DNA of 64,000 bases. Source: Actinoplanes sichuanensis (GTDB taxonomy: Bacteria; Actinomycetota; Actinomycetes; Mycobacteriales; Micromonosporaceae). The position numbers and the translations under genes are program-made. A model generated the notes under the pieces. The model was given only the letters and a program-made list of their open reading frames with translations. It had not been told where the DNA came from and did not search any database. Positions within the stretch are counted from its first letter, which is position 1; each line of letters opens with the position of its first letter. Of this stretch, positions 3,917 to 23,286 are shown piece by piece. Where the stretch lies: the NCBI RefSeq assembly GCF_033097365.1, contig NZ_AP028461.1, positions 9,176,001 through 9,240,000 of the forward strand. The letters are read 5' to 3'.

Positions 3917-3941
3917 TCGTACACCCCCTCCCCACCGACCC

Positions 3942-4462: not shown

Positions 4463-4516
4463 GGCAAACGATCCGACGGTCCTGTCGCCTTTCAGAGTCC
4501 AGGAAATCCATCCTCA

Positions 4517-4804: not shown

Positions 4805-4809
4805 GACCA

Positions 4810-6192: not shown

Positions 6193-6198
6193 AATGTC

Positions 6199-6315: not shown

Positions 6316-6412
6316 CTACACCGACTCGTCTATGTAAATCTTCGCAGCGCCGGTCCCTGGCCTCGACGTTGCGGGGTGTTGCACCTCGTCCCATCGCGTC
6401 CATTCAGCTACA

Positions 6413-6500
6413 GAGTCCATCGAGCACATCGCCATCGATGGACTCTCCGCCGGTGGGGATGCCTTGATGAGGCATCCGTTGAGGCTGGGACTCTGTCCCA
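6413..6500 (+). promoter_or_regulatory. Three successive hairpins in the leader of the Nudix gene
   Basis: Three perfect inverted repeats lie in the 110 bp before the Nudix start: GAGTCCATCGA/TCGATGGACTC (6413-6423, 6435-6445), GGATGCCT/AGGCATCC (6457-6464, 6470-6477) and TGGGAC/GTCCCA (6486-6491, 6495-6500). They could be operators or a structured 5' leader. None is followed by a T-run, so simple termination is unlikely. Confidence 0.45.
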
Positions 6501-6521
6501 ACGATCAGAGAGAATCACTTG

Positions 6522-7349
6522 GTGACGACGACAACGCGGCCGGACCCTGAGGCTGAGTGGTGGACGACGAAGGATGTTGCGGCGTACCTCGGCATCGCGG
6601 TTGCCGCCGTCAGCAGCTACCGGCGTCGCGGGCAGATGCCCGAGCCTGACAAGACCATCGGCACCCGCACGCACCTGTGGAAACCGGCTCGGATCATCGA
6701 CTGGCACGGCTCCCGTGACCGGGTTGGCGTCGGTGGCCGGCCGCGCGGAAGCAAGGCCGAACTGGCACCCGTTCCGGCACCCGAGCCGGACGATCTCAGC
6801 CGGTGGGTCACACACGGTCGTCGACCGTTGTACGACAGCGAGTGGATCAAGCTCTACATGACCGATGTTGAACTGCCGGACGGCCAGCGCTTCGAGCACC
6901 ACACGGTGTGGATGCCGACCGCCGCCATGACGGCGGTTCTGAACGACGCCCTGACGCACGTGCTCCTGATGTGGCGACACCGGTTCGTGCCCGACCTGTG
7001 GAACTGGGAGTTGCCCGGCGGCCTGGTCGACGCGGACGAGGAGCCCGCGCAGACGGCGGCACGCGAGATCGAGGAGGAGACCGGGTACCGGCCCCGGAGC
7101 ATCGAGCACCTGGTGACGTTCGAGCCGATGATCGGCATGGTCAGCACCCCGCACCACGTCTTCATCGCGCGAGGCGCGGAGCGGATCGGTGAGCCCACCG
7201 AGAAGACCGAGATGCAACGCATGGAGTGGGTGCCGCTGACCCAGGTTCCGGCCCTGATCGCTCAGGGGCAGGTCAGCAACTCTGGAACGCTGGTCGCCCT
7301 GCTGCACGTGCTGGCGATCAGCGGCCCGAAGGCTCCATACCGCTCCTGA
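6522..7349 (+). CDS. Nudix hydrolase with N-terminal HTH domain
   Basis: About 275 residues from GTG at 6522 (TTG at 6519 is also possible; AGAGAG lies upstream). Residues ~13-70 form a helix-turn-helix of MerR/excisionase type (WWTTKDVAAYLGIAVAAV, SYRRRGQMPEPD, THLWKPARIIDW). The C-terminal half is a Nudix domain with a complete box: G-x5-E-x7-REIEEETG (residues ~166-190). Nudix enzymes hydrolyse nucleoside diphosphate derivatives such as NDP-sugars or dinucleotides; the substrate here is not predictable. The fusion suggests a DNA-bound or regulatory enzyme. Its 3' end overlaps the convergent broken regulator by 32 nt. Confidence 0.85.
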   Translation: MTTTTRPDPEAEWWTTKDVAAYLGIAVAAVSSYRRRGQMPEPDKTIGTRTHLWKPARIIDWHGSRDRVGVGGRPRGSKAELAPVPAPEPDDLSRWVTHGRRPLYDSEWIKLYMTDVELPDGQRFEHHTVWMPTAAMTAVLNDALTHVLLMWRHRFVPDLWNWELPGGLVDADEEPAQTAAREIEEETGYRPRSIEHLVTFEPMIGMVSTPHHVFIARGAERIGEPTEKTEMQRMEWVPLTQVPALIAQGQVSNSGTLVALLHVLAISGPKAPYRS

Positions 7350-8373
7350 GCAGCTTGGCGATACGGCGTCGTTGACGTTCCGATGAGGCTCGTGTGGCCA
7401 GCACCTCGGCCGCGCGAGCCTCGGTGCGTGCTTCCTCGTGCTGGCCCCGGACCGAATACGCCTGCGCGAGATCGACGCGTAGCCCTGCGGCGGCCCGCGT
7501 GAACGTCGGGTCCAGCTGGTTCACCGCGTCCGTCAGCTCCTGCACTGCGGCAGCCTTGCCGAGGCGGGCAAGGCAGTGTCCTCGCCAGCGAGCCAAGTGC
7601 ACCTCGTCCAGGAACAGGAACGGCAAGCTGTCGTCCTTGCCGTGAGCCGCCAGAACCTCGCTCGCGTTGTCGAGCGCGGTTTGGGCCTCGGTAGCCGCGC
7701 CGGCCGCCGCGAGCGCCTCCGCCTCGGCCGCCCATAACCACGAGCGGAGTTGGCCCGGCACCTTCCCGTCGGCTGTACGCCGAGCGTGCTGAATAAGTGC
7801 TACCGCGCTGGCTGGTCTATCGAGGTCGAGCAGGGCGTATGCCTGCTGCGCTGTCACATGGGCAACGATCGACGGATCTTCGCTGTCCCGAGCGGCTGCT
7901 TTGGCGGTTTCGTGCAACGCCCAGGCCTTGCCAGGGTCACCCAGGTCGAGCGCCTGCCATCCGGCCAACGCGGCACCCTCGGCGAGCGCTGCCGCAAGCG
8001 CCGTCCGGTGCGGCCCCGGTAGTGCATACCGCCACAAATCAGCCATCTGCCCGATATGCGCTTCGGTCTGCTGCAAGAGCCGCGCGGCCCCGAGCTGCCG
8101 ATCGAGCGTCCGGAACGATTGCGTCTGCGCCTCAAGCAGACTGACCAGGGACGCGTCAAGCGCCTCGGCTGCCGCGAGCCTCGCCGCGAGGTCGGCCTCG
8201 GCAGGCGGAAGCGAGACCGGCGACGCTGCCACGCCCTTGCCGACCGCGAACGGCACACCGAACACCTCGGCGAACAGTTCGGCGTAGTCGGCGGAGAGGG
8301 GCCTTCCCCCTTGATCTTGGACACTTGAACCTTGGATCGTGAGGTCCGGGTAGATCAGGAGTCCTGGAACAGC

Positions 8374-8685
8374 ATGGCGAACAAGCACTATCCCGCACAG
8401 TTCAAGGCCGACGCGGTGGCGTTGTACCGGTCTCGGCCAGGCGCCACGATCGCGGTGATCGCCGCCGATCTCGGGATCAACCGGGAGACGCTGCGGAGCT
8501 GGGTCCGCGCCGACGATCAGCGCCGCGGCGGTGGTCGCGTCGGCCGGCCCGCGGCGGCCACGCCGGAGCCGGGCTCGGTCGAGGCGGAGAACGCCGAACT
8601 GCGCCGGCGGGTCCGGGAACTGGAGGAGGAACGCGACATCCTACGCAAGGCGGCCCGGTATTTCGCCGGGGAGACGCGCTGGTGA
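8374..8685 (+). CDS. IS3-family transposase OrfA
   Basis: A 103-residue protein with an N-terminal helix-turn-helix (FKADAVALYRSRPGATIAVI, then ADLGINRETLRSWVRAD) and a C-terminal leucine-zipper-like coiled coil (ENAELRRRVRELEEERDIL) ending RKAARYFAGETRW, the standard IS3 OrfA layout. OrfA binds the IS ends. The start is the ATG at 8374, with AGGAG 12 nt upstream. Its TGA overlaps the GTG of orfB (GTGA), which may support coupling or frameshifting to an OrfAB fusion. Intact. Confidence 0.9.
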   Translation: MANKHYPAQFKADAVALYRSRPGATIAVIAADLGINRETLRSWVRADDQRRGGGRVGRPAAATPEPGSVEAENAELRRRVRELEEERDILRKAARYFAGETRW

Positions 8686-9281
8686 ACCGCTTCCAGTTCG
8701 TTGCCGACCACCAGCAGCGCTACGGCGTGAAGCGGTTGTGTCAGATCCTGGGCGTGGCCCGATCGAGCTACTACTACTGGACGTCGACCGCGCCTGCCCG
8801 GGCAGCCCGGCAGGCCGCCGACACCGTCCTGGCCCGGCAGATCCGTAAGGTCCACGCGGCCGACAACACCTACGGGGCGCCGCGGATCACCGCCGAACTG
8901 CGAGACCGTGGCACGCTGGTCAACCACAAACGCGTCGAACGGGTCATGCGCTCGATCGGTGCACAAGGGCTACGGCTGCGCCGCCGGACCCGCACCACGA
9001 TCAGCGATCCGGCCGCGGCCAAGGCCCCGGACCTGATCGGCCGGGACTTCACCGCCCCGGCGGTCAACCAGCGCTACGTCGGTGACATCACGTATCTGCC
9101 GGTCGGTGAGCGCGGGTTCCTCTACCTGGCCACCGTCATCGACCTGCACTCACGCCGCCTCGCCGGCTGGGCGATCGCCGACCACATGCGCACCGACCTG
9201 ATCATCGACGCCCTCACCGCCGCCCAGCGCACCCGCGGCAGCCTGGCCGGGGCGATCTTCCACAGCGACCACGGGGCCCAG

Positions 9282-10733
9282 CTTAGGTTCAAGGAGTCGT
9301 TGCAACACTGGCTCTCTGGAGCGATCTTAGATGCTCCTCGAAGGCTTCAGCAGGAGTTTTCCATTCCAGCATTTTGCGCGGTCGGCCGTTGAGTGCGGCG
9401 GCGATGGCGTTGAGGTCGCTGACGGTGTGTCGTGATAGGTCGGTCCCCTTCGGGAAGTACTGGCGCAGCAGGCCGTTGGTGTTCTCGTTCGTTCCGCGTT
9501 GCCAAGGACTGTGCGGGTCGCAGAAGTAGACGTCGAGGCCGGTGTCCAGTCGCAGTTGGACATGCTGGGCCATCTCGGCCCCTTGGTCCCAGGTCAACGA
9601 GCGTCGCAGTTGCTCGGGCAGGGTGAGGATCTGCTCCGCGATCGCGTCGCGCACGGCCTCGGCGCCGTGCCCGGCCAGCGGTGGACCGTTCTTCACGACA
9701 GGCTGCTGACCATGTCCTTCCATCCGGGGAAGATGCAGCAGCATCGTGAACCGTGTGGTCCGCTCGACCAGCGTGCCGATCGCGGACTTCTCGAGGCCGA
9801 TGATCAGATCGCCCTCCCAGTGCCCGGGAATCGCCCGATCGGCGACCTCCGGCGGCCGCTGGCTGATCATGACCTCGGGGCTGACGAAGTGCTTCCCGCG
9901 GCGGCGTGTGCGTGCTCTCGGCGCCCGCAACGCCCGGCCGGTCCGCAAGCACGCCGTCAGCTCCCGACGCAACGCGCCTCGTCCTTGGACGTACAGTGCC
10001 TGGTAGATCGCCTCGTGCGAGATTCGCATCGACTCATCATCCGGGAAGTCCCGCCGAAGCCGGCGGCTGATCTGCTCCGGGCTCCATGCCGTTCCCCAGC
10101 GCCGATCCGCGCGACGGCCATGCCGGCGGCCTTTCCACGGGACGTTCGGGCCGGGGATCGGCCGGCCCTCACCATCGGTGATCGCCCCGGCGAGCCGTTC
10201 CTGCACGTAGTCACGAAGCCGCTCGTTGACCGCCAGCTTCGCAACCTTCGGGCGGCGGCCACGCCGCTCGGCGTGCCACTGCGCATTCACCGCACGGTAG
10301 TCGATGCGACCACCCCTGGTCGCCGCGTTGCGGCGCAGCTCCCGCGAGATCGTCGACGCGTCACGGCCCACCGCCCGGCTGATCTCGCGCACGCCCTTGT
10401 CCTGCGCTTTGAGCAGGGCGATCTCCTCACGCTCAGCGAAGGACAGATACCGGCCCGACAGCGGCGCGAGCGACAAAGGTGGCATACCGCCACCCTGGCG
10501 AAACCAGCGCCCGCCTACGGGCTGCGACACACCGCACGCCGCGGCAGCCTCCTCACTCGACAGCCCTTCAGCGATCCGCAGCCAGAACTGCCGCCGCACC
10601 TCCCGGTGCTCGTTCACGCCCGGACGGCCCGGCGACCGCAACGCCGGCCTGCCCGTCATCGCCGTTGTCCAGCCCGGAGGTCTTCCCATGACACACCCCT
10701 CGATCAGGGTGTTGCGACGACCACTTGAATCCG
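9282..10733 (-). mobile_element. IS30-family insertion sequence nested in IS3
   Basis: A 1452-bp element with matching ends: TTCAAG-2 nt-GTCGT-1 nt-GCAACAC near the left end (about 9288-9307), with the same pattern inverted near the right end. Flanked by CCCAG at 9277-9281 and 10734-10738, read as a target duplication (a preceding G is also shared). It carries one transposase on the minus strand. Its intact gene and the younger, inner position suggest it was the last to arrive. Confidence 0.85.
9289..10689 (-). CDS. IS30-family transposase
   Basis: A 466-residue protein from ATG at 10689, preceded by GAGGGG; the frame is open further upstream but without this signal. The N-terminal helix-turn-helix reads LSFAEREEIALLKAQDKGVR, then EISRAVGRDASTISRELRRN. 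The catalytic domain has the IS30 DDE pattern: GHWEGDLIIG, LTWDQGAEM and NENTNGLLRQYFPKGTD. Length fits the family with a moderate N-terminal extension. The frame appears complete, so this is potentially an active transposase. Confidence 0.92.
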   Translation of the reverse strand: MGRPPGWTTAMTGRPALRSPGRPGVNEHREVRRQFWLRIAEGLSSEEAAAACGVSQPVGGRWFRQGGGMPPLSLAPLSGRYLSFAEREEIALLKAQDKGVREISRAVGRDASTISRELRRNAATRGGRIDYRAVNAQWHAERRGRRPKVAKLAVNERLRDYVQERLAGAITDGEGRPIPGPNVPWKGRRHGRRADRRWGTAWSPEQISRRLRRDFPDDESMRISHEAIYQALYVQGRGALRRELTACLRTGRALRAPRARTRRRGKHFVSPEVMISQRPPEVADRAIPGHWEGDLIIGLEKSAIGTLVERTTRFTMLLHLPRMEGHGQQPVVKNGPPLAGHGAEAVRDAIAEQILTLPEQLRRSLTWDQGAEMAQHVQLRLDTGLDVYFCDPHSPWQRGTNENTNGLLRQYFPKGTDLSRHTVSDLNAIAAALNGRPRKMLEWKTPAEAFEEHLRSLQRASVATTP

Positions 10734-11421
10734 CCCAGTACACATCGAAGGCCTTCGCTGCCGTCTGCGCGGCGGCCGGGGTCCGGCAGTCGATGAGCAA
10801 GGTCGGCAGCTCGGCCGACAACGCCCTCGCCGAGTCGTTCAACGCCACCTTCAAACGCGAAACCCTGCAAGGCCGCCGCGCGTTCACCGACGAACGCGAC
10901 GCCCGCCTGACCTCGTTCCGCTGGCTACACCGCTACAACACCGTCCGCCGCCATTCCCGCCTCGGACAACAGCCCCCGATCACCTACGAGCGGACCCAAG
11001 AAAGATCAGCTACCATCACACAAGCCGCATAAACCCCGTGTCCAAGTTCCGGGGGTAAGGCCCGAGGCCGCGTCGGCCGTGCGCCCACTCGCGGATCATC
11101 CTCTTCAGACTCGGGTCATCCGGGAGTAGTCCGCGATTCCTGCTGCGCGCGGCGTTGCGGAGTTCGAGCATGAGCCGGGCGCGGCTCCACCCCTGCTGGT
11201 CACAAAGCCTGACGAGGTCGGTTCCGTCCATCATGATCCGACAACCCGCCATCGTTGATCAGCAATCCGCATGATCACGGAATCGTAGCGGGGGATCGCG
11301 AGGGGACGAGTCCCCCGAGTCCCCTGCCGTCCCCTGATCTTTTCCGCTAACGGGCATCAAGCTAGATCCATAAGCGACAACGGATGACAGCGACCGACAG
11401 GGCGCGACGAACAACCGGGTT

Positions 11422-11450
11422 GCAAAGTACTAACTTAGTTAGTACTTTGC
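11422..11450. promoter_or_regulatory. 29-bp near-perfect palindrome, operator candidate
   Basis: GCAAAGTACTAACT, one central T, then AGTTAGTACTTTGC: 14-bp arms with no mismatch, AT-rich in a G+C-rich setting. It lies 80 bp upstream of the ATG at 11531, the first gene of the replication/integration module, in the divergent region facing the broken regulator. It looks like a dimeric repressor site. The cognate repressor is unknown. Confidence 0.6.
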
Positions 11451-11530
11451 TCCTAAGAACGGCGTCGGTCGGGGCGGCCACCCCGATCGACGCCAGACAT
11501 CCCGTCCTCCCCTGTGATTGGAGTACAAAG

Positions 11531-11950
11531 ATGCAGGTCAAGGCTATCTCTACCGCCTCGGTTCCGCCTCTGTCGATCGCGTGTCACCCTGGCGACTTCG
11601 AGGTGACCGGCCCGGCGGTCGTGAGCCTCGCCCCGGTCGTCACTCTGTCGCGTGAGGACCTGGTCGCCGCGCTGCTGCTGGCCGAGATCGACGCCGAGCA
11701 GGTCGCTTCGATGACGATCGAGCAGGTACGGCATGAGGTGGCGTACGCGCTGGCCGCGTACGGCATGACGGCCGTTCACGAGACGGTGTTCCACGAGCGC
11801 AACGGCCGATTTGCCGATGCCGACGTCATCGCCTACAAGGCGCTGTGCGCGTCGCGGATCGAGGCTGCGTTCGGACTCGCTCCGGCTACCCAGCCCCGGG
11901 CCGCGTCGCGCTCGATCGGTGCCCGTCGCGAGCTTGCTCGGGTTGCCTGA
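11531..11950 (+). CDS. Hypothetical protein at the head of the replication module
   Basis: A 139-residue protein from ATG at 11531 with GGAG 9 nt upstream. The middle (residues ~30-95) is helical and acidic (LSREDLVAALLLAEIDAEQV, MTIEQVRHEVAYALAAYGM). The end is basic and Ala-rich (RSIGARRELARVA). No family recognised. A 206-nt gap separates it from the prim-pol gene on the same strand; I see nothing coding there. Position downstream of the 29-bp palindrome suggests it is the first gene of the module. Confidence 0.6.
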   Translation: MQVKAISTASVPPLSIACHPGDFEVTGPAVVSLAPVVTLSREDLVAALLLAEIDAEQVASMTIEQVRHEVAYALAAYGMTAVHETVFHERNGRFADADVIAYKALCASRIEAAFGLAPATQPRAASRSIGARRELARVA

Positions 11951-12156
11951 TTCACCAGCACACCTCGCACCACCCTGCGGGCGTTCGCGCTCTGCGCATG
12001 TTCTCTGACAACTCCATCCGGGGCCGCGCCTCCCCCTGCCAACGGGGCGCAACCCGACGCGTCATCGACGCGTCACCAACCGGCACGCACGCTGCGCAAA
12101 CGGCAGCTTGCATGCCTCATTCCCTGCTTCTCCGATCGAAATAGTCAGGAGAGCTG

Positions 12157-13137
12157 ATGACGATCCCGATCAACCCCATGAGGGACCGCCTGACGGCGGC
12201 CTCACCACCGATGCGTGAGCACGGTGGGACTCACCCCGGATCGCCGCGCTCACGCCGAGCGTCCGCCGCGCTGGCGTACGCCAGGAACGGGGTTCCGGTA
12301 CTGCCGTTGTACGAGATCCGAGCCGATGGCGGGTGCGCTTGCGACCGGCCAGAATGCGACCGGCCCGGCAAACACCCACGCCTGCCGAAGGGCGTACACG
12401 ACGCGTCCGCCGACCTCGGGCGGGTGGCACAGTGGTGGCGCTGGTGGCCGGACGCCAACGTCGGCGCGGCGACCGGTCACCTGTTCGACGTGTGGGACAT
12501 CGACCTTCCCGCGGCTTCCGCCTGCGACCTGCTGGCGGACTACCTCGGCGACCTGGCCGCGTCCTGGCCGTCGACGCGGACGGGGTCCGGCGGGACGCAT
12601 GTGTTCGTGTACCCGACCGGACACGGCAACCGGGCGAAGTTCCTGCCCGGGTGCGACTGGCGCGGACGCGGCGGGTACGTGGTCCTCCCACCGTCCGGCC
12701 ACTCGTCCGGCGACCCGTACGAGTGGTTGGCCGTGCCGCTGGTCAGCCCGGTCGCAGACCCGGGCACGCGGGTGGCGTTCCCTCCGGCTCCGGTGGGTCT
12801 GCGCGAGGCGCTGCAACCGCGACCTTTGCGTGCCACCCCCGCGCGGGCGTGGCACGCGAACCAGACCCGCCCGTACGCCGAGGCCGCCCTACGGGCCGAG
12901 TGCGACGCTCTGGCCGCGATGTCCGCCGACTCCGGCCGCAACAACCGGTTGAACCGAGCCGCGTTCAACCTCGGCCAGCTCGTTGCCGTCGGACACCTCG
13001 GCTATGACGACGCGGCCGAAGCACTCGCCGCCGCTGCCGCAGCCTGCGGACTCGGCCCCCGGGAAGCGGCCCGGACGATCGGGTCCGGACTGACCGCCGG
13101 ACAGCTCAACCCGCGCACCGCTCGGAGGTCCGCATGA
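12157..13137 (+). CDS. Bifunctional DNA primase/polymerase (prim-pol) domain protein
   Basis: A 326-residue protein, start ATG at 12157 with AGGAGA 7 nt upstream. The AEP-type prim-pol domain spans about residues 30-215: ALAYARNGVPVLPLY, a Cys/His cluster (CACDRPECDRPGKHPR), WWRWWPDANVGAATG, catalytic D114-x-D116 in VWDIDLP, H148 in SGGTHVFV, and GYVVLPPSGH. The tail (residues ~245-320) is helical. Such proteins replace RepSA-type initiators in many actinomycete integrative elements, synthesising primers and DNA during element replication. Its stop overlaps the next gene by 4 nt (ATGA), so the two are translationally coupled. Confidence 0.88.
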   Translation: MTIPINPMRDRLTAASPPMREHGGTHPGSPRSRRASAALAYARNGVPVLPLYEIRADGGCACDRPECDRPGKHPRLPKGVHDASADLGRVAQWWRWWPDANVGAATGHLFDVWDIDLPAASACDLLADYLGDLAASWPSTRTGSGGTHVFVYPTGHGNRAKFLPGCDWRGRGGYVVLPPSGHSSGDPYEWLAVPLVSPVADPGTRVAFPPAPVGLREALQPRPLRATPARAWHANQTRPYAEAALRAECDALAAMSADSGRNNRLNRAAFNLGQLVAVGHLGYDDAAEALAAAAAACGLGPREAARTIGSGLTAGQLNPRTARRSA

Positions 13138-14696
13138 CCGTCACGAGCGTCAACGGACGGACGGCGTCCGGCCCGGCATCCTCCGGCTCCGGCGACGGTC
13201 CGATGTGGGAGATCCCGGTTCCGCTTTCCCAGACGCTGGCGTTGCCACCGTTCCCGGTCGATGTGTTCCCCGGCTGGTTGGCCGACATGGTCACCGCTAC
13301 GGCCCGGTTCACTCAGACCGATGTGGCGATGGCCGGCGGAGTCGCCCTGGCCGTGCTGTCCGCTTGTGCGGGCGGACGTCTGGAGATCGAGGCGCGTCCG
13401 GGGTGGCGGGAGCAGGTGAACCTGTTTCTCGCGGTGGTCGCCGATCCGGGCGAGCGTAAGAGCCCGGTGCACGGTGCCTTGACCGACCCGCTGGAGTCGG
13501 CCGAGAAGACCTTGGGAGCGAAGACCGAGGCGAGGATCGCCGAGGCCGCCGCGCTCAAGGACATCGCGACCCGACAGGCCGAACACGCGAAAGCCCTTGC
13601 GGCGAAGGCCGATCCGGCCAAGCGCGACGACGCAACCGCCGAGGCGCTGGCCGCGTCGGTGGCGGCCGAGGCGATCACCGTGCCGGAGCTGCCACGGCTG
13701 TTCGCCGATGACGCCACCCCGGAACAGTTGGTATCGCTGATGGCCGCCAACGGCGGCCGGATGGCCGTGATCAGCGATGAGGGCGGCGTGTTCGACATGC
13801 TGGCTGGACGGTATTCGTCGGCACCGAACCTCGACCCCTACCTCAAGGGGCACGTCGGCCGCCCGATCCGTGTCGACCGCAAGGGCCGCGCGGCGGAGTA
13901 CATCGCGCGTCCGGCACTGACGGTCGGGGTGATGATCCAACCGTCGGTGCTGCGCAAGTTCGGCGGTAACGACGACCTGGCCGGACGTGGTCTGGTTGCC
14001 CGGTTCCTCTTCGTGCTTCCGGCCAGTCTCGCCGGGTGGCGCGAGACGGACCCAGACCCGATCCCGGACGACGTCCGGCACCGGTACGCCACCCAGGTTC
14101 ACGACCTGGCCGCCACGCTCGCCGAGTGGACCGACCCGGCCGTCATCACCTTGACGCCGGAGGCCGCGCCGATCCGGTCGGCCGCCGCCGCTGAGGTCGA
14201 GCGGCAACTACGGCCGGGTGGCACGCTTCGCGACGTGCCGGACTGGGCGAACAAGCTGGGCGGCACCATGGTCCGGCTTGCAGGACTGCTGCACGTCGCG
14301 CGGCGTCCGGGCGACGGATGGCGACACCCGATCGAGGCGGACACGATGGCGGACGCGGTCAAGCTGACCGGGTTCCTGGTCGCGCACTACAAAGCGGCCC
14401 GCAACACCATCGTGGCGGACACGGCACTCGGACCGGCCCGGTACGTGCTCGGCGTGCTGGTCGATAAGCAGATCAGCGCGTTCACGGTCCGGGAGTTGCA
14501 TCGCCGGGTGATCCGGCAGTTGCCGAAGTCCGCCGACGTCGCCGCCGCGCTCGACGCTCTGGCCCAGCGCGGGTGGGTGCGCCAACGCGAGGGCCGATGG
14601 GAGACCCACCCCCGCGCGGCGGAACTCGCGAAAGCCGTTGACACGTTGACAAACGACCTCGACACGGCCTTTTCCGCAGTTCAAGACACCGATTGA
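13134..14696 (+). CDS. DUF3987 (YfjI-like) protein, replication-helicase-like partner of prim-pol
   Basis: A 520-residue protein. Residues ~35-390 match the DUF3987 layout: PPFPVDVFPGWLADMV, DVAMAGGVALAVLSACAGG, a degenerate Walker-A-like VADPGERKSP near residue 107, VISDEGGVFDML, GVMIQPSVLRKFGG and GRGLVARFLFVLP. The C-terminus looks like a winged helix (SAFTVRELHRRVIRQLPKSA, DALAQRGWVRQREGRW). Members usually sit beside prim-pol genes on mobile elements and are presumed to act in replication as an ATPase or helicase. Two tandem CGTTGACA copies lie within its 3' end (14636-14651), so the iteron cluster begins inside the gene. Confidence 0.85.
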   Translation: MTVTSVNGRTASGPASSGSGDGPMWEIPVPLSQTLALPPFPVDVFPGWLADMVTATARFTQTDVAMAGGVALAVLSACAGGRLEIEARPGWREQVNLFLAVVADPGERKSPVHGALTDPLESAEKTLGAKTEARIAEAAALKDIATRQAEHAKALAAKADPAKRDDATAEALAASVAAEAITVPELPRLFADDATPEQLVSLMAANGGRMAVISDEGGVFDMLAGRYSSAPNLDPYLKGHVGRPIRVDRKGRAAEYIARPALTVGVMIQPSVLRKFGGNDDLAGRGLVARFLFVLPASLAGWRETDPDPIPDDVRHRYATQVHDLAATLAEWTDPAVITLTPEAAPIRSAAAAEVERQLRPGGTLRDVPDWANKLGGTMVRLAGLLHVARRPGDGWRHPIEADTMADAVKLTGFLVAHYKAARNTIVADTALGPARYVLGVLVDKQISAFTVRELHRRVIRQLPKSADVAAALDALAQRGWVRQREGRWETHPRAAELAKAVDTLTNDLDTAFSAVQDTD

Positions 14697-14852
14697 GCCG
14701 TCAACGGGGGCGTTGACACCCCGTCGACAGGCGTTGACACCCACCCGGTTGTCGACGATGTCAACGCCCTGTCAACGCCCCCGTTGACAGCCACACACCC
14801 CCACCTAGCAGCGCAAATATCCCTGCGAGTGGCGATTGTCAACGTGTCAACG
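14636..14852. repeat. Iteron-like cluster of CGTTGACA octamers (origin candidate)
   Basis: The octamer CGTTGACA or its complement TGTCAACG occurs at 14636, 14644, 14711, 14732, 14759, 14770, 14782, 14837 and 14845, with a 7/8 form at 14700. Two copies at the left edge (CGTTGACACGTTGACA) and two at the right (TGTCAACGTGTCAACG) form a perfect 16-bp inverted pair 185 bp apart. Inner copies form GTCAACG-4-CGTTGAC and TGTCAACG-4-CGTTGACA. The tract follows the prim-pol/DUF3987 genes, as expected of a replication origin or initiator-binding region; that role is inferred. Confidence 0.7.
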
Positions 14853-14899
14853 CTGTCAGCGCCTCTCCGCCCGATCCGGCCCTTGGAGGACTCACCCCG

Positions 14900-15316
14900 A
14901 TGAACGACCCGACCGCCCTGACCGACCAGCTCAAGGCCGCCAGCGCCGACGCGAACGCCCGACTCCGCCGCGCCGGGCACCTCCCGCACCTGCGATACAC
15001 CCACGACCCCGCCACACCCGGGTGGCTCGCTGACCTGTTCAACCACCACGCCGAGGCGTTGCGCTCCGGCCGAGGCCGCATCTGCCCGCACATCGGCCCC
15101 GCACCGCGCGTCGTCTGCGCGTTCGCGTGGACACCCGGCCTGCTGGTCTGCACCGGCTGTCGGCACCTCGCGACGCCGGACGCGGCCGAAGACAATACGT
15201 GCGACCGGTGCCGCAGACCGTGTGAGCCGATCTGGCCCGGCATTGCCCAGGTCGGCCCGATCCTCTTCGCCTACGGCCTCTGCGGCGCCTGCCATCGCCT
15301 CGCTTCAGCTACCTAG
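14900..15316 (+). CDS. Zinc-ribbon-like hypothetical protein
   Basis: A 138-residue protein, start ATG at 14900 with GGAGG about 14 nt upstream. The N-terminal half is helical (ALTDQLKAASADANARLRRA). The C-terminal half has a Cys-rich pattern: CPHIG, VVCAF, LLVCTGCRHL, NTCDRCRRPC and GLCGACHRL, four CxxC-like pairs suggesting one or two zinc sites. No named family recognised. It starts 48 nt after the iteron-like cluster and precedes the excisionase. Its end overlaps the opposing small gene by 4 nt. Confidence 0.6.
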   Translation: MNDPTALTDQLKAASADANARLRRAGHLPHLRYTHDPATPGWLADLFNHHAEALRSGRGRICPHIGPAPRVVCAFAWTPGLLVCTGCRHLATPDAAEDNTCDRCRRPCEPIWPGIAQVGPILFAYGLCGACHRLASAT

Positions 15317-15507
15317 AGCCTCTGGATCCGGAGTTTGCGCAGGTCGCAGTCAGCCTGAAGATCCGCAATCGGATGGACCGCACCGTCAGGTTCCAAGGTC
15401 GCGTGTGTCGTGCCGTACTCCGGGTGGCCAATCTGGCCGCGCCATTGCACTCGTGGACCATTCCAGATTTCGAAGCGGTCACCGGCCTGTAGCTCCTCCA
15501 GCCGCAC
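15313..15507 (-). CDS. Small hypothetical protein antisense to the excisionase leader
   Basis: A 64-residue protein from GTG at 15507 with a strong GGAGG 6 nt upstream, which decides the start. The sequence reads as a compact beta-rich domain (RLEELQAGDRFEIWNGPRV, GQIGHPEYGTTHATLEPDG). No family recognised. It faces left against an otherwise rightward module, ends 4 nt inside the zinc-ribbon-like gene, and starts 80 nt from the excisionase start, so the two share a divergent promoter region. Confidence 0.6.
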   Translation of the reverse strand: MRLEELQAGDRFEIWNGPRVQWRGQIGHPEYGTTHATLEPDGAVHPIADLQADCDLRKLRIQRL

Positions 15508-15586
15508 AGTGCACCTCCTGTCTACCGAGCCGCACGCTGCGGCTAGTCAATGCCGCGTCACAACATCCCACATCGGAGGCAGCAAA

Positions 15587-15934
15587 CTGAACGCCCGCAT
15601 CTATAACCTCGCTCCGCGCACCACGGCCGCCGAGGCACCTGCCCTGCCCGGCGCTCCCGCCCCGGTCGGCCGCGTGGTCTACACCGTCAAGGAAGTCGCC
15701 GAGATGCTCTCGCTCGCGCTCGGCGGCACCTATGCCCTGATTCGGTCGGGTGAGATTCCCGCGATCAAGCTGGGCGGCCGGTGGGTCATCCCCAAGGGCC
15801 GCTTCCACGCGTGGCTCGACTCCTGCCGCGTCGAGCCGGAGGCCGATCCGGACATCGACCCCAAGCTGATCGAGCAGGCACACGCCGAGGTCCTGGCCGC
15901 CATCCAACGCCGCCGCGAGCGGCACGGAGCGTGA
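15587..15934 (+). CDS. Excisionase-like HTH protein, probable CTG start
   Basis: About 115 residues. Residues ~28-80 form an HTH_17/excisionase fold: VVYTVKEVAEMLSLALGGTY, ALIRSGEIPAIKLGGRWVIP, then KGRFHAWLDS. The tail is helical and charged. No ATG, GTG or TTG fits: an ATG at 15410 would overlap the antisense gene and lacks a ribosome site, while CTG at 15587 has GGAGG 8 nt upstream. A CTG start is therefore the best reading. Such proteins bind attachment-site arms and steer the integrase toward excision. The integrase gene follows after a 1.2-kb repeat-rich gap. Confidence 0.8.
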   Translation: MNARIYNLAPRTTAAEAPALPGAPAPVGRVVYTVKEVAEMLSLALGGTYALIRSGEIPAIKLGGRWVIPKGRFHAWLDSCRVEPEADPDIDPKLIEQAHAEVLAAIQRRRERHGA

Positions 15935-15954
15935 CCGGATCGAAGGCCGGTGAA

Positions 15955-15994
15955 GGTGCTAGCGCTAGCAACCACCCCTGCTAGCGCTAGCACC
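15955..15994. repeat. 40-bp inverted repeat with nested GCTAGC palindromes
   Basis: GGTGCTAGCGCTAGCA, 8 spacer bases, then its exact complement TGCTAGCGCTAGCACC. Each arm contains the 12-bp palindrome GCTAGCGCTAGC. A further half-site, GCTAGCACC, follows at 15998-16006. It starts 20 nt after the excisionase stop. It could be a terminator stem or a protein-binding site; the doubled internal symmetry favours binding. Confidence 0.6.
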
Positions 15995-16159
15995 TCCGCT
16001 AGCACCCGATCCGGGCGTTGATCAGGTTGATAGCGGATAGCAGGCCAATCGACCATGGCCCCGAGAACCGCCCCGGAAGGCAATTCCCGCCCTCTCCGCC
16101 GCCTGCTAGACGGACCAGCAATCCAATCACTTTCCGTGATATCTCGGGAGCCGGTAGCC

Positions 16160-16195
16160 GCTAGGCCTAGCCCCTACCGCCGCTAGGCCTAGCGG
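16160..16195. repeat. Paired CTAGGCCTAG palindromes at 22-bp pitch
   Basis: GCTAGGCCTAGC at 16160-16171 and CCGCTAGGCCTAGCGG at 16180-16195 are perfect palindromes whose shared cores begin 22 bp apart, about two helical turns. The pitch would place two bound dimers on the same face of the DNA. Confidence 0.5.
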
Positions 16196-16232
16196 CACCG
16201 CTAGCCCCACCCTTGCCCCTCTGAGCAGCGAT

Positions 16233-16549
16233 CTAGCGGCCTAGCGGCCAAACCGCCCAACCCCTCGAAACCGGCCCGCACGGCGGTTCACAACAGTGCG
16301 CCCAGCCGCTAGCTAGGCCACAGCACCACGCACCGACCGTGACGAATTCAGCGGGCCACTCGCCGCGATGCATCGCGGGTTAGACCGCGATGCATCGCAG
16401 GGCCGCGAGGGTGGGGCCTCGCGGCCTCTGCCAGCGACCTAGCGGCATCGCGGCCAAACCACACGACCACCCGGAACCGGTCCCCACGGCGATCCACGCC
16501 ACTCCGCCCAGCCGCTAGCTAGGCCACCAGCCCGCGCACTGACCGTGAC
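16233..16549 (+). repeat. Degenerate ~110-bp direct duplication
   Basis: Segment A (16233-16343) and segment B (16439-16549) align along their length: both start CTAGCGGC, pass through GCGGCCAAACC, share GCCCAGCCGCTAGCTAGGCC and end GACCGTGAC. The copies have diverged in the middle. The spacer holds the CGATGCATCG palindromes and a 10-bp hairpin (16401-16426). An old duplication of a functional non-coding unit is the simplest reading. Confidence 0.55.
16363..16398. repeat. CCGCGATGCATCGC palindromes, two copies 22 bp apart
   Basis: CCGCGATGCATCGCGG (16363-16378) is a perfect 16-bp palindrome. CCGCGATGCATCGC recurs at 16385-16398. The 22-bp pitch equals that of the pair at 16160-16195, although the sequences differ. 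Confidence 0.5.
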
Positions 16550-17042
16550 TGTCTCACCCTGTCCCTCCTCGCGCGCCCGCGCGAAGACCGCCCCCGCCTG
16601 CTGTCTCACGTCGCATGAGACACCCGCGCGACAGTTACACCACCTCACCACCCGCACGACCGGCCACGGGCGCGGGCCGTCCGCGACCGGTCGCGGCGAC
16701 GCGACCACCACCGCGACCGGCCTAGCCAGCACGACCACCCGCCGGCCGTGCGTCGCGGCCAACCTGCCACCCGTCACGAACGGCCGGAAAAGACGCCTCA
16801 CCGGGCCGCGACCGCCGCGACCGCAACCGGGCCGCCGCATCGACCCGCCGACACCGCCCCGACCCGGCACCCCTCACGGCGTTACCGACACCCGCTCTAC
16901 ACGGCGATCACGGTAGCGCAGAGTCACGCCCCTGCCTCGCTCACAGAGGTAGCGGCAGGGGTAACGGAACGCCGAAAGGTAGCGGAAACGCTACCCCCGC
17001 CGCTACCTGCCTCGGCCGAACTGATCAGCACGAACAGCCCGA

Positions 17043-17130
17043 GGTAGCGGGTAGCGGCACCCGCCACCAACCCCGCACCAACCCCCAGAAACAGCGGGAC
17101 AGACACCCACGCGGGCCGCTACCCGCTACC
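17043..17130. repeat. GGTAGCGG-type inverted repeats before the integrase
   Basis: GGTAGCGGGTAGCGG (17043-17057) and its exact complement CCGCTACCCGCTACC (17116-17130) enclose 58 bp, ending 25 nt before the integrase start. Related GGTAGCG copies occur at 16912, 16949 and 16979, the last forming GGTAGCG-gaaa-CGCTACC. They may be arm-type or excisionase sites controlling int expression, or part of a recombination site. Confidence 0.5.
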
Positions 17131-17155
17131 CACAACACGAAGGAGATCCATCACC

Positions 17156-18316
17156 GTGGGTCACGTCATCTCAACCCCTTCGGGCAACTGGCGTGCCAAC
17201 TGGCGCGACCCGTCCGGCAAGCAGAAAGCCAAGACGTTCAAGACCAAGAAGGCAGCCAATGCCCACCTTGCCGAGGTCGAGAGCAGCAAGCACCGGGGCA
17301 CCTACGTCGATCCGGACGCGGGCAAGGTCCGGTTCGCTGATTTCGCCGCGCGATGGCTCCTCGGTAGGGAGGTCGAGGCCCGGACGGCCGAGCGCACGAT
17401 GTCGCTCCTGCGGACGCATCTCGTTCCCCGATGGGGCGCTTTGCAGCTCGCGCAGATCGACTACATGTCGGTTCAGGAGTGGGTGGTGGAGCTGGGCACC
17501 AAACTCGCTCCGCCCACTGTCTCCAAGTGCTACGGCCTCTTGAAGGCCATCCTGGCCACAGCGGTCCGGGCGCGCATTCTGCCGTACAACGCGGCCGAGG
17601 GCGTGAAGGTGCGCCGGGAGGCACGCGAGGCCGCCCAGCGCTCCTCGGCCATCACCCGCGACGAGTTCTTCGGCAAGCTGCTGCCGGCCGTTTCCGTCCG
17701 GCACAAGGCCATCGTCTGTCTGGCAGCCGGAGCAGGTCTGCGCTGGGGTGAATGCGCCGGGTTGACGTGGAGCGCACTCGACCTCGACGCGGCCACGGTG
17801 CGCGTGGTCCAGGTCGCCGAGGAGACGCCCCATGGCGTGACCCTCCGGCCGTACCCGAAGACGAAGGCAGGTGTTCGCACCGCGCCGCTCCCCTCGTTCT
17901 TGACGGCAGAGCTATGCGCCCACCTCGGACGGTTCCGCGAACGGCCCGCGCTTACCGACCTCGTCTTCCCGACCCGGCACGGAACACCGATCCTCCGGGG
18001 CAACTTCCGCCGGGAGGTGTGGAATCTCGCGCTGGCCCGCTCCGGCCTGCCGACGACCCTTCGGTTTCACGACCTGCGCCACTCCTACGCGACGTGGCTC
18101 ATCTCCGAGGGCGTACCTGTCAACGCCGTCCAGAAGGTCATGGGGCACGCCAACGCGTCCACGACCCTCGACCGCTACACCCACGCCCCGACCGACTATC
18201 AGGCGCTTGTACGGGGCGTTTTCGACCCCTCTGCTGACGATCTGCTGACTTTTCCGGCCTCGGACCGCTCGGACGAGGACGACGATGGCGGGGCGGCTCT
18301 GCCGCTACCTGCATAG
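17156..18316 (+). CDS. int: Tyrosine site-specific integrase
   Basis: A 386-residue protein from GTG at 17156, with GGAGAT 8 nt upstream. The N-terminal arm-binding domain reads GNWRANWRDPSGKQKAKTF. A SAM-like core-binding domain covers residues ~60-150. The catalytic domain shows R196 (AGLRWGE), the lysine region (PKTKAGVRTAPL), H305-x-x-R308 (HDLRHSYAT), H331 (MGHANAS) and nucleophile Y341 (LDRYTHAP). All catalytic residues are present. It catalyses integration and, with the excisionase, excision of the element. Being the last gene of the module, the attachment site is expected just downstream (18317-18650). Confidence 0.95.
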   Translation: MGHVISTPSGNWRANWRDPSGKQKAKTFKTKKAANAHLAEVESSKHRGTYVDPDAGKVRFADFAARWLLGREVEARTAERTMSLLRTHLVPRWGALQLAQIDYMSVQEWVVELGTKLAPPTVSKCYGLLKAILATAVRARILPYNAAEGVKVRREAREAAQRSSAITRDEFFGKLLPAVSVRHKAIVCLAAGAGLRWGECAGLTWSALDLDAATVRVVQVAEETPHGVTLRPYPKTKAGVRTAPLPSFLTAELCAHLGRFRERPALTDLVFPTRHGTPILRGNFRREVWNLALARSGLPTTLRFHDLRHSYATWLISEGVPVNAVQKVMGHANASTTLDRYTHAPTDYQALVRGVFDPSADDLLTFPASDRSDEDDDGGAALPLPA

Positions 18317-18326
18317 GAGCACGATC

Positions 18327-18443
18327 GGGGGTCGGTCCCGGATAGGGAACGACCCCCGTCGGGGGAGACGGGGGCCGTCCTGGGATTCGGCTCCGGGGGG
18401 GGTCGAGCCGAATCACCCGGTGATCGCGGGGGGCGCGATCACC
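18327..18443. terminator. Three consecutive hairpins after the integrase
   Basis: GGGGGTCGGTCCC/GGGAACGACCCCC (18327-18339, 18345-18357, one mismatch), GATTCGGCTC/GAGCCGAATC (18384-18393, 18405-18414) and GGTGATCGCG/CGCGATCACC (18419-18428, 18434-18443). The first can terminate int transcription. The other two may insulate the element border or belong to the recombination site. No clear T-run follows any of them. Confidence 0.55.
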
Positions 18444-18480
18444 GAGGCCTGAAATCACCTAGTTGTAGGTCACTGGTTGA
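18444..18480 (+). other. Candidate attachment-site core (tRNA-like fragment)
   Basis: Immediately after the hairpins the sequence TTGTAGGTCACTGGTT resembles the anticodon-stem/variable-loop/T-arm part of a tRNA, then diverges before a T-loop is completed. Integrases of this type often use a tRNA 3' end, and the location between int and the first backbone gene is right for attR. No complete tRNA is present here and the matching left end is outside the window, so this is tentative. Confidence 0.2.
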
Positions 18481-18653
18481 AGCGGGAACAACACACACCT
18501 CATAGCAAACACAAGTTTGCCTCAGGATCACGCTCCGCGTCGAGTACCGATTGTCGCCGACTGGCCCGGGTCCTACCCGTCTGACCGATTTCACAGGCTG
18601 TCACCGCAGGGCGCGTCACGCGTGCGGGACAACGGGTTCGGGTGTGGTGCGGC

Positions 18654-18659
18654 TACACT
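18654..18659 (+). promoter_or_regulatory. -10 element for a leaderless HAD-phosphatase transcript
   Basis: TACACT ends 8 nt before the GTG at 18668, leaving no room for a ribosome site; transcription would begin at or next to the start codon. Leaderless mRNAs are common in actinobacteria. No convincing -35 hexamer is seen. Confidence 0.5.
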
Positions 18660-18667
18660 TTCGGCCC

Positions 18668-19465
18668 GTGGGGCTGAGCGCCGCCTTTTTCGACCTCGAC
18701 AAGACCGTCATCGCCAAGTCCAGTGCGCTGGCCTTCGGACGGCCGTTCTATCGGGATGGCCTGATCAGCCGGCGTGACGTGGTGAAGACCGCCTATGCCC
18801 AGTTGATGTTCCGGCTGGGTGGCGGCACCGACGAGCAGTCGATGGCCCGCACTCGTGACTACATGGCCGCCCTGTGCAAGGGCTGGCGGGTCGAGCAGGT
18901 GCAGCAGATCGTCGCCGAGACCCTCGGGACTCTGATCAATCCGTATGTCTATGCGGAAGCCGCCGCGTTGATCGCCGAACATCAGGCCGCGGGCCGAGAT
19001 GTGGTGCTCGTCTCAGCTTCCGGTGATGAGATGGTCCGCCCGATCGGCGCGCTACTCGGCATCACCGACGTGATCGCGACCCGGATGGCGATCGTCGACG
19101 GGCGTTACAGCGGCGCGGTGGAGTTCTACGCGGCCGGCCCGGCCAAGGTCACCGGCGTCCAGCGGCTCGCCGACGAGCGCGGATACGACCTCTCCGAGTG
19201 CTACGCCTACTCGGATTCCAGCAGCGATCTTCCGCTGTTGGAGGCGGTCGGCCATCCCAGCGCCGTCAATCCGGACCGCGCGCTGCGCCGGGTGGCCGCC
19301 CTGCGCTCCTGGCCGATCCTGGAGTTCCGCCATCCCGTACCGCTCGGTCGCCGCCTTCGCGACCGCCCGGCGGTGCCGGTCGCCGCTGCGCTCGGCGTCG
19401 GCGTGGGCGTCGCCATCGGCGTGGCCCTTTACGGTCGCCACCGCCGATCCCGCGCGGTCGCTTGA
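18668..19465 (+). CDS. HAD-superfamily subfamily IB phosphatase
   Basis: A 265-residue protein. HAD motif I is AAFFDLDKTVIAKSS (nucleophile Asp and acid Asp), the cap domain follows, motif II is DVVLVSASGDEM, a motif-III-type lysine lies in GPAKVTGV, and motif IV is YAYSDSSSDLPLLEAVG. The C-terminus has a hydrophobic stretch (VPVAAALGVGVGVAIGVALY) and a basic end, suggesting membrane attachment. The family is SerB-like and often linked to phosphoserine or phospholipid head groups; substrate unknown. The GTG at 18668 is preferred over upstream frames because of the -10 at 18654. It is the first backbone gene right of the mobile region. Confidence 0.85.
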   Translation: MGLSAAFFDLDKTVIAKSSALAFGRPFYRDGLISRRDVVKTAYAQLMFRLGGGTDEQSMARTRDYMAALCKGWRVEQVQQIVAETLGTLINPYVYAEAAALIAEHQAAGRDVVLVSASGDEMVRPIGALLGITDVIATRMAIVDGRYSGAVEFYAAGPAKVTGVQRLADERGYDLSECYAYSDSSSDLPLLEAVGHPSAVNPDRALRRVAALRSWPILEFRHPVPLGRRLRDRPAVPVAAALGVGVGVAIGVALYGRHRRSRAVA

Positions 19466-19849
19466 AACCCCTTATTCGGTACGGCTACGAAGAGCACCGT
19501 GGCTGTCCACGCGACGTGATCAACCACTCCAGGCCGAAACGCGACCGCCGGGCTTATCCGGTGGTTCCCCGGCTATTGGTCTGAGTATTTCCCTTTCGGC
19601 CACCTTTCCCGCTGAAATCTGGCGATCAAGCGACGAGCGGCGTAGAAATGAGTCGCGGGCCCGGAAACATCGGGCACCGTGCACGGCCACCGGGAACCCA
19701 CGCGCGATCAGCCACGGCAGGCACGTTGCGATGGGACCTCCGCCCTGCGGGGCGCTGGACCGTCGACAACGACCCAGGTGCACGCTTGTTAACCCGGTCC
19801 GGACGCGCACAGCCGGCGCCCCCGCGAGGGACGCCGGCTCTTCGGTTTC
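19466..19849. other. Intergenic stretch with a terminator and no gene
   Basis: I see no supportable gene in these 384 bases. The right end carries the hairpin described at 19811-19839. The remainder has no repeat or RNA structure I can name. Confidence 0.6.
19811..19839. terminator. Terminator hairpin between convergent genes
   Basis: AGCCGGCG, a 13-nt loop that can extend the stem, then CGCCGGCT followed by CTTCGGTTTCT. It lies just past the stop of the PH-domain gene and downstream of the HAD gene, so it can serve both directions. Confidence 0.65.
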
Positions 19850-20326
19850 TCAGGCTTTCCCAGCCGCCCGGTGCCGGTTACGGATCTCCTGGTAGACGGC
19901 TCGGAACAGCTTCGGCCGGGCGTGGAAGTCGACCCCTTGGGCCCACAGTTCGGTGTTCACCGTGGCGCCGTCATGCCGCTCGATCAGCACCGTGGTGTCC
20001 CGCTGCAGCTCCCAGCGCCCGACCCGATGGGTGGCCTGATGCAGGTGCACCCCGGCGATCTCCCGCCAGCGCAGGATGCGCGACCGCAGCAGCCCACGGA
20101 TCAGCACGCCCTCACTGCTGACGTAGACACCGTGCTGGATGATCCGCCAGGCGCCGATCACCCAGACCGCGGCGAGCACCACGGCGATGGCACGCACTCC
20201 GTGCCCGATCAGGTCGAACTGTCGGATGGACGCCCATGTGAGCAGTGCCAGTGCGACCGCTTCCCAGATGATCACAAGCCAGCGGCCGACACCCGGCGGA
20301 TAGGGACGGACCCAGTGCGAACCCAC
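19850..20326 (-). CDS. PH-domain-like membrane protein
   Basis: About 158 residues from the GTG at 20326; upstream residues of the longer frame overlap the next gene and look non-coding. Two adjacent hydrophobic helices (residues ~15-35 and ~43-62: LVIIWEAVALALLTWASI, IAVVLAAVWVIGAW) form a hairpin. A bacterial PH-like domain follows (IIQHGVYVSSEGVLIRGLLR, RILRWREIAGVHLHQ). It is a membrane-anchored protein of the small 'PH domain-containing' type common in actinobacteria. No enzymatic motif. The start lies 20 nt from the end of the Fic-like gene, so the two are probably co-transcribed. Confidence 0.7.
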   Translation of the reverse strand: MGSHWVRPYPPGVGRWLVIIWEAVALALLTWASIRQFDLIGHGVRAIAVVLAAVWVIGAWRIIQHGVYVSSEGVLIRGLLRSRILRWREIAGVHLHQATHRVGRWELQRDTTVLIERHDGATVNTELWAQGVDFHARPKLFRAVYQEIRNRHRAAGKA

Positions 20327-20346
20327 GCAGAGAAGTATGCCGCCGT

Positions 20347-21078
20347 TCAGACGGCGGCCAGGACACCGTCTCCGATCACGCTGATCTCCTGGGCACCGGC
20401 CGTGATCGCCGCGGCATAGTGCCGCAGCCACGACCGCACACCGTCCGGGGTTCCGGTGGCGTAGGCGCCGGCCGACCCGACGTACTCCGGCTCGCGGGAG
20501 TGGTGGCCGGCCTCGACCACGACCAGGCCGCGCGGGTCGAAGCCGCGGGCGGTCAGGGTGAGACGGGCGGCGGCGCGGGCGACCACACCGGCCGGGCCGG
20601 CGAACGGGCGCAGCGTGATCAGCTCGGCGTGGACGATCGCGGCGAGCAGCATCGGCGGGGTGGTCTCGTTGCCGGCGACGAGACCGGCGAGCGCGTCGAT
20701 CCGCTCCGCCCCGGAGGTCAGGCGCCCGAGGTCGTGCTCGTGGACGACACCGCGGGCGGCGAGCACGTGCAGTTTGGCGAGCACCTGACGGGGCGCGCGG
20801 GGCCAGAGGTCGACCAGGCCCGGTAGCGACTCGGCGACGCGGAGGGCGCCCTGCACGACCGGATCGGTGACGGTTCCGCCGCGTACCTCATCGAGGTCGT
20901 AGGTGTTGCCTTCGAGAGCCGCGCTGGCGACCGCGGCCCGGAGGCTGGCCTCTGCGGCCACCTGGCCGCCGTGCCGGCGCAGAGCGCGGTGTTTGTGGGC
21001 GGCGTCGACGGCTTCTCGTGCGCTCGCGAAGGCGGGCGCGACATCCGCGAGGTCGAGCAACGGGGCAAGTGGATCCAC
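20347..21078 (-). CDS. Degenerate Fic-fold protein
   Basis: About 243 residues from GTG at 21078. It has the helical layout of Fic proteins, including an EGNTYDLDEVRGG segment where Fic proteins carry SSxIEG-like inhibitory or N-terminal helix motifs. The catalytic position reads ITLRPFAGPAGVVARAAARL, compared with the canonical HPFxDGNGRxxR. The catalytic His, the Asp/Glu, the Asn and the first Arg are all replaced, so AMPylation activity is not expected. Divergent from acetyl-CoA synthetase, 212 bp apart. Some homologues are labelled oxidoreductases, without support here. Confidence 0.6.
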   Translation of the reverse strand: MDPLAPLLDLADVAPAFASAREAVDAAHKHRALRRHGGQVAAEASLRAAVASAALEGNTYDLDEVRGGTVTDPVVQGALRVAESLPGLVDLWPRAPRQVLAKLHVLAARGVVHEHDLGRLTSGAERIDALAGLVAGNETTPPMLLAAIVHAELITLRPFAGPAGVVARAAARLTLTARGFDPRGLVVVEAGHHSREPEYVGSAGAYATGTPDGVRSWLRHYAAAITAGAQEISVIGDGVLAAV

Positions 21079-21289
21079 GTGAACACGGTAACCGGTAAAA
21101 GTACGGAAACCTGGGGTGCACAAACGAGCGCGGAACTGGCAAGATTCGCGCAGTAGTGAGCATCGATTCGCCAGTCGGCGCGCGCACGACACCATCGAGC
21201 GCGGGCTGGCGTGCAAACCTTCGCCGGGCCTACCGGCGCAACTAGTGTGCAGGAATAGAGACCCCGGTCACGGCAGAGGAGCCGCCCTC

Positions 21290-23275: not shown

Positions 23276-23286
23276 CGACGATTAAT

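Follow-up and report, generated by a model that had tools for sequence, protein, structure and literature searches.

The replication genes in this window (the whole 64-kb stretch of DNA analysed here) are accompanied by a dense array of short repeats, and the question raised by this locus is what such an array does and which protein reads it. A preliminary description had seen at least nine exact octamers in 217 bp, with a tandem doublet at each end and two internal palindromic pairs, and had taken them for a candidate origin. The features on which the present analysis bears are collected in the table.

Features of the array and of the genes around it (positions are those of the window)
Feature	Position	Strand	Remarks
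Prim-Pol (bifunctional primase/polymerase) gene	12157..13137	+	PF09250, E 3.2e-30
DUF3987 (YfjI-type) gene, candidate initiator	13134..14696	+	PF13148; predicted MCM-like AAA+, C-terminal winged-helix-like domain
Residue 460 (Ile) codon	14511..14513	+	residue tracking base 3 of the repeat
Outer left doublet, CGTTGACA x2	14636..14651	+	within the DUF3987 frame, encodes VDTLT
Left 47-bp spacer	14652..14698		box TTTTCCGCAG at 14670-14679, reverse of CTGCGGAAAA
Left inverted inner site	14699..14706	-	one mismatch
Left inner trio	14711..14739	+	sites 14711, 14722 (one mismatch), 14732
Two-fold symmetry centre	14740..14749		six mirrored pairs
Right inner trio	14750..14777	-	sites 14750 (one mismatch), 14759, 14770
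Right inverted inner site	14782..14789	+	exact CGTTGACA
Right 47-bp spacer	14790..14836		box CAGCGCAAAT at 14809-14818, 7/10 matches to CTGCGGAAAC
Outer right doublet, CGTTGACA x2	14837..14852	-	exact sites
Third outer right site, TGTCAGCG	14854..14861	-	one mismatch; not part of the symmetry
Helix-turn-helix (HTH_17) gene	15410..15934	+	PF12728, E 3.4e-14; start codon uncertain
Tyrosine integrase gene	17156..18316	+	PF00589, E 2.7e-28

An exact count returns nine copies of CGTTGACA within 14636-14852, in the number and at the places described before, on the (+) strand at 14636, 14644, 14711, 14732 and 14782 and on the (-) strand at 14759, 14770, 14837 and 14845. Sites with one mismatch are added at 14699, 14722, 14750 and 14854, which brings the sites with at most one mismatch to 13 between 14600 and 14899. 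The doublets at the two ends do form the perfect 16-bp inverted pair that had been claimed; the pair can be extended to 20 bp at 95%, and the doublet is unique to the array within the 12.1-Mb genome with one mismatch allowed. Both internal palindromic pairs are likewise present, at 14699-14718 (where the left site has one mismatch) and at 14769-14790. What the preliminary description had missed is the overall two-fold symmetry: 12 of the 13 sites fall into six mirrored pairs about a single centre near 14744 (tolerance 1 bp), and in each half exactly 47 bp lead from the inverted inner site to the outer doublet.

The number of octamers is, as had been stated, far above chance. Among 2000 dinucleotide-shuffled versions of the 300 bp from 14600 to 14899, none exceeded 2 exact sites, 5 sites with at most one mismatch, or 1 mirrored pair, and none of the 630 other 300-bp windows across the 64 kb holds more than 2 sites with one mismatch allowed. 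Over the complete window, 11 exact copies of CGTTGACA are observed against 1.94 expected. The array had been placed directly after the Prim-Pol and DUF3987 genes; also missed was that its left part (14636-14696) is still within the DUF3987 frame, at the 3' end of it. An AT-rich zone was looked for in the array and not found: the A+T content of the spacer is 26-44% in windows of 10 columns, and its mean GC is 65%, against 68% in the flanks.

Among 300 genomes of the family, 84 contain relatives of the DUF3987 protein, as do 24 of 394 of the class, the own genome, which has a single match, being included in both counts; Catenuloplanes, Micromonospora, Longispora and Frankia are among the named sources of such relatives. 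Further searches of 35 genomes of another family gave no new locus, and of 354 of the own family, seven. The 35 analysed loci with a DUF3987 protein at least 56% identical constitute clade 1, from whose counts the window itself (L001-L003), L008 (on the contig of L004) and the fragments L060 and L120 are left out. The core pattern was defined as an inner site of the CGNTGACA type, a spacer of 45-49 bp and an inverted doublet, with N free and the trio counted separately. This core is present at the 3' end of DUF3987 in all 35 clade-1 loci: 26 have it to the left, 34 to the right and 25 on either side, as a mirrored pair; it occurs in none of 3500 shuffled flanks and in none of the 86 loci below 50% identity. 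The array thus holds its standing as an origin candidate, its core and spacing being kept at the same place in 35/35 loci. The conservation of the octamer among relatives, on the other hand, is true of core and spacing and not of the octamer itself, which varies as CGNTGACA with N being T, G or C.

The grammar of these cores is rather strict. Their spacer measures 47 bp in 53 of the 65 cores, 48 bp in 8, 46 bp in 3 and 49 bp in 1, this last one sitting in the array centre of L019 and probably being spurious. The 42 bp preceding the inner site contain three exact TGTCA in 50 of the 65 cores, two in 10 and one in 5, mostly in steps of 9-11 bp; counted by locus, at least one half has three in 28 of 35 loci, and two or more in 32. 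Other arrangements include one half only (L024, L028, L029), two tandem halves (L026, L027) and three right halves (L040). In addition, an A-CTGCGGAAAC box with up to 2 bits per column holds a constant place in the 53 half-units whose spacer is 47 bp long (31 loci). The left box lies within the DUF3987 frame and the right box past the stop in most loci, so that DUF3987 coding does not account for the box on the right. A more general test compared the 300 bp spanning the DUF3987 stop with 25 shuffles. An array stands above all of these shuffles in 32 of the 35 clade-1 loci (the other 3 arrays do not), in 18 of the 75 loci with 40-50% identity and in 1 of 11 below 40%, while a control region 400 bp downstream does so in 0/35, 0/74 and 1/11.

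Outside clade 1, several loci at 40-50% identity, L033, L034 and L095 among them, carry short inverted trios of other motifs, of the TGACAGAAC, TGCCAGAAC and CCGCGGATT types, and by eye these motif types accompany different sequences of the DUF3987 C-terminal domain. Inverted trios with other motifs can be seen by eye in several more of the 75 loci, outside the count of 18. Another conserved block, GATCTTGSCTCTACGGCGCTCTCAGCGGGCCG, often preceded by an inverted partner, GGCCCGCTGAGAGC, lies 184-364 bp past the DUF3987 stop in 20 of the 35 clade-1 loci (L013, L018, L012, L020 and 16 others) and in four relatives at 46-47% identity; it was not seen at the corresponding place in the window. A search against Rfam gave no match in the seven loci scanned.

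The variable base of the repeat offers a way to its reader. Read past the stop codon only, N is T in 18 loci, G in 14 and C in 3, and this base follows a single residue of the DUF3987 protein, residue 460, which was picked by scanning the DUF3987 columns in 28 loci. After seven loci were added, the rule holds in 35 of 35: residue 460 is H, Q or R in all 14 G-type loci, and S, I, A or Y in all 21 T- or C-type loci. The T and C types are only partly separated, since A accompanies C in three loci and T in one. Translated, the outer doublet reads VDTLT, GDTVT or ADTLT, so base 3 can be read from the protein alone. Among 86 proteins, 52 are informative, 33 have no readable doublet and one (P0011) is ambiguous. 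In the readable ones G goes with H, Q or R in 25 of 25, T with S, I, Y, A, M or P (23 proteins), and C with A (4). The rule as set on the loci fits all 31 further proteins, which are less than 95% identical to each other and to any locus protein. The two types also meet among close relatives: in P0002, 84% identical to the window, I stands with T, and in P0003 (83%) H stands with G.

Shared descent was taken into account with trees. A 35-locus tree built without the C-terminal domain contains five supported contrasts, all of them concordant (p 0.0625). In a quick tree of the joint set of 66 rows, in which the 28 loci used for picking column 460 are contained, the supported branches carry eight independent contrasts, every one of them in agreement (sign test p 0.0078), there being 10 contrasts when unsupported branches are counted too. 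In the same rows, column 460 classifies 100%, and the next best of the 380 well-filled columns, 89%. Columns 434, 437, 440, 484, 485 and 488 are associated with base 3 as well, less strongly, so that linkage of the gene's 3' end with the array may add to the signal. Columns 10, 12, 13 and 17 also split G from non-G, but they precede most alignment starts and are sparsely filled, and a second column, identified by its residues as 505, does so too, since it falls in the part of the frame that encodes the doublet.

As controls, six other ORF families, present in 19-33 of the 34 contexts, were searched for a column of this kind, and none of their 1534 variable columns (229 for Prim-Pol, 644 for Tra, then 395, 72, 94 and 100) separates G from the rest. 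The four families besides Prim-Pol and Tra are one at the integrase position and three small ones; families 9 and 13 overlap, and one of the two at least is probably no gene. The covariation controls cover 7 of the 32 listed ORF families, the remainder including many antisense and flanking frames, and the 34 contexts are of 20 kb, L011 being left out with its contig of 4.3 kb. Prim-Pol was considered as reader and judged less likely: none of 154 columns separates G by tblastn (27 of 35 loci), and none of 229 when the longest family ORF per locus is taken (33 of 34 loci). This pattern across sequences argues that the array is very probably read, that is, bound, by DUF3987. Since the base change tracks a DUF3987 residue and no tested Prim-Pol column, DUF3987 is the better candidate for footprinting.

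DUF3987 was earlier predicted to be a mobile-element helicase, as the consulted part of PMC5862659 has it. In the model obtained here, the protein has the predicted fold of an MCM-like AAA+ ATPase and carries a winged-helix-like domain at its C terminus. It is the succession of secondary-structure elements in the full-length model that gives the winged-helix reading; the isolated C-terminal fold had a pLDDT of 49 and was not used. In the full model, residue 460 falls in the turn that links helix 452-458 to helix 466-478. A location in the recognition helix was rejected, since the model puts the residue before the third helix of the domain. Foldseek TM-scores against MCM are low across the whole model (0.36), and the VIA-align rows span model residues 43-481 for the most part, most of them stopping near 424, so that the DNA-binding domain is barely compared. 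By sequence, the DUF3987 profile found a single, chance-level match among PDB chains (E 0.73).

These genes belong to what is an AICE-like replication module. AICEs are actinomycete integrative and conjugative elements; they carry an FtsK/SpoIIIE-like Tra and are flanked by att repeats, usually with a tRNA end. In the window, the end of Prim-Pol and the start of DUF3987 overlap by 4 bp, and the array is followed by a 138-aa frame without Pfam match, the HTH_17 gene, perhaps an excisionase, and the tyrosine integrase; integrase and replication genes thus share one module, as in an AICE. Two 142-nt direct repeats, 76% alike, lie between the HTH gene and the integrase (16226-16367 and 16432-16573). 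On the other side of the module are found a NUDIX gene, an ApeA-like gene and IS3/IS30-type transposase genes. The ApeA-like HEPN gene (PF18862, PF18739; 4810-6192, (-) strand) is a possible anti-phage gene near the element, and the IS3-type and IS30-type genes, which adjoin each other at 8332-10887, perhaps occupy the slot where relatives carry tra. A Tra-like family is present in 28 of the 34 contexts and absent from the window slice 4001-24000; from this absence and the gene content, the module is taken as AICE-like and the element carrying it as possibly damaged. No tRNA was found in the window, and no framing direct repeats of at least 20 bp in 1-19500.

The contexts of relatives hold Prim-Pol alongside DUF3987, often together with Tra-like and integrase-like genes. 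The 20-kb contexts of four relatives were inspected: a tRNA-Ser or tRNA-Tyr is present in L128-L130 and none in L131, and sub-threshold matches were obtained to FtsK-like proteins in L128 and L130 and to an integrase in L128. Contig 1 of genome G064 has three equal-score DUF3987 matches about 8.1 kb apart (7368250, 7376377 and 7384502), as if one element were repeated in tandem.

As for its function, the array is probably the replication origin (the initiation site) of this AICE-like integrated element, with its DUF3987 protein as the reader, a claim that draws on comparative sequence evidence. The same protein could instead bind the array for control or maintenance, as copy-number, handcuffing or partition iterons do, with initiation elsewhere in the element. 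Iteron arrays frequently serve copy control, and covariation points to the reading protein and says nothing of what follows; a fixed spacer with a conserved box and mirrored halves, however, resembles a loading assembly and not a store of sites, and a control site appears unlikely. It is also conceivable that DUF3987 is not the reader and that the gene's 3' end and the array are merely inherited as a block. Such hitchhiking would fit the raised signal of the adjacent columns 434-440 and 484-488 and the overlap of the outer doublet with the coding end. Against it, H, Q and R, which often contact guanine, each occur with G in separate lineages, the supported contrasts agree without exception, and 460 is the sole perfect column among the well-filled ones, all of which leaves this account quite improbable.

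Readers other than DUF3987 would imply other functions. In Streptomyces plasmids, the winged-helix domain of TraB reads 8-bp repeats, and the array might by this precedent be a conjugal transfer locus (clt) read by an FtsK-like Tra, all the more as the Tra-like family is so frequent in the contexts. Tra as reader was nevertheless rejected, with 0/644 columns separating G from the other types (28 of 34 loci), and the family is absent from the contexts of the window and of five other array-bearing loci (about 9-10 kb per side), which makes a clt very unlikely; a different Tra is possible in contexts lacking the family, as in L131, where a 734-aa protein has a sub-threshold AAA_22 match. A transcriptional operator, acting on downstream genes or in autoregulation of the replication genes, would suit an array placed between DUF3987 and the frame that follows, with a repeat that includes TTGACA, which resembles a -35 hexamer. 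Yet the array stands at the 3' end of two replication genes and is partly coding, in 17 of 35 loci a G or C at base 3 alters the first base of the hexamer, and twelve mirrored sites exceed, in our judgement, what an operator usually needs, so there is little to be expected from this reading. Least credible of all are DnaA boxes or a site for another host protein: TGTCAACG is loosely like TTGTCCACA, but there is no match to TTRTCCACA within one mismatch across the array, and a host protein would not account for the tracking of an element-encoded residue.

An origin read by DUF3987 can be set beside known systems. In the iteron plasmid origins of the RepA/RepE class, an array of short repeats is read by a winged-helix initiator, and RepA-class origins have DnaA boxes and an AT-rich unwinding zone; here, neither was found, and the proposed initiator is the AAA+ protein DUF3987. 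In SaPI-type origins, an AT-rich region accompanies the iteron sets. According to the portion of PMC7581432 consulted, the C-terminal domain of SaPI Rep recognises repeats directly 3' of its gene, with a primase also encoded, and that of SCCmec Cch2 binds direct repeats downstream of its gene. The present array resembles the SaPI origins in lying directly 3' of a predicted helicase gene, with the core in 35/35 loci. The MCM-like fold of the DUF3987 model and the covariation of residue 460 with the repeat may point to an AAA+ helicase whose C-terminal domain reads the repeats. The array differs from the SaPI origins in having no AT-rich zone and in its mostly 47-bp spacer, its CTGCGGAAAC box and its mirrored 12-site grammar. 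The DUF3987 profile, moreover, finds no SaPI Rep chain in the PDB at E up to 1, and SaPI5 Rep (7ola), which is in the PDB, gives a Foldseek E of only 0.08, SaPIbov1-type Rep standing outside this comparison. By analogy, the best reading is that the array would work in the manner of SaPI origins; it is not classed as a member of the SaPI type, because neither the sequence relation nor the AT-rich zone was found. SCCmec Cch2 is a D5-type helicase with three 5-nt iterons (a putative origin), unlike the MCM-like fold and mirrored 8-bp sites seen here. SCO4617/4618 of SLP1 is a known Prim-Pol AICE replication module, likened by module type alone.

For Prim-Pol/DUF3987 elements, a search mostly limited to open-access literature, to the exclusion of most subscription papers, brought up no published description of an origin, and the novelty claimed here is accordingly provisional. 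In PMC3218068, on Prim-Pol AICE modules, the word 'iteron' is absent from the main text and the portion consulted describes no origin; the consulted parts of PMC5862659 and PMC10803314 describe none for DUF3987, and no open-access paper was found that combines YfjI and iteron. In kind, the array would be an ordinary, iteron-like origin; what is new is its probable reader, the mirrored grammar and the one-residue code.

The mechanism proposed for this origin starts with copies of the DUF3987 domain, which would bind the doublet and the inner sites in each half, each half placing one hexamer beside its fixed spacer. The mirrored pair would establish two opposed helicases, leaving the origin as two rings, while the spacer melts, the conserved box either melting or docking a partner, and the Prim-Pol encoded alongside would prime synthesis. 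Single halves, as in some relatives, would launch one fork only. Melting would have to start in DNA of 65% G+C. A broader and more tentative proposal, which we regard as possible but doubtful, is that DUF3987 proteins constitute a bacterial class of MCM-like initiators that load themselves, at an origin that is modular, made of half-units and a position-460 code. The half-unit (trio, inverted site, 47-bp spacer with its CTGCGGAAAC box, and doublet) would load one hexamer, a mirrored pair giving two opposed forks, and a single or tandem half giving one.

The candidate origin can be drawn base by base, with a probable reader and a residue-to-base rule that predicts the array type from the protein, and this rule makes origin recognition testable by swapping natural proteins and arrays. 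Replicating vectors for Micromonosporaceae could also come of it, and sequence searches could locate origins of this type in many genomes. If the reading is true, a one-residue code at position 460 sets the base specificity, and related elements would avoid each other's origins.
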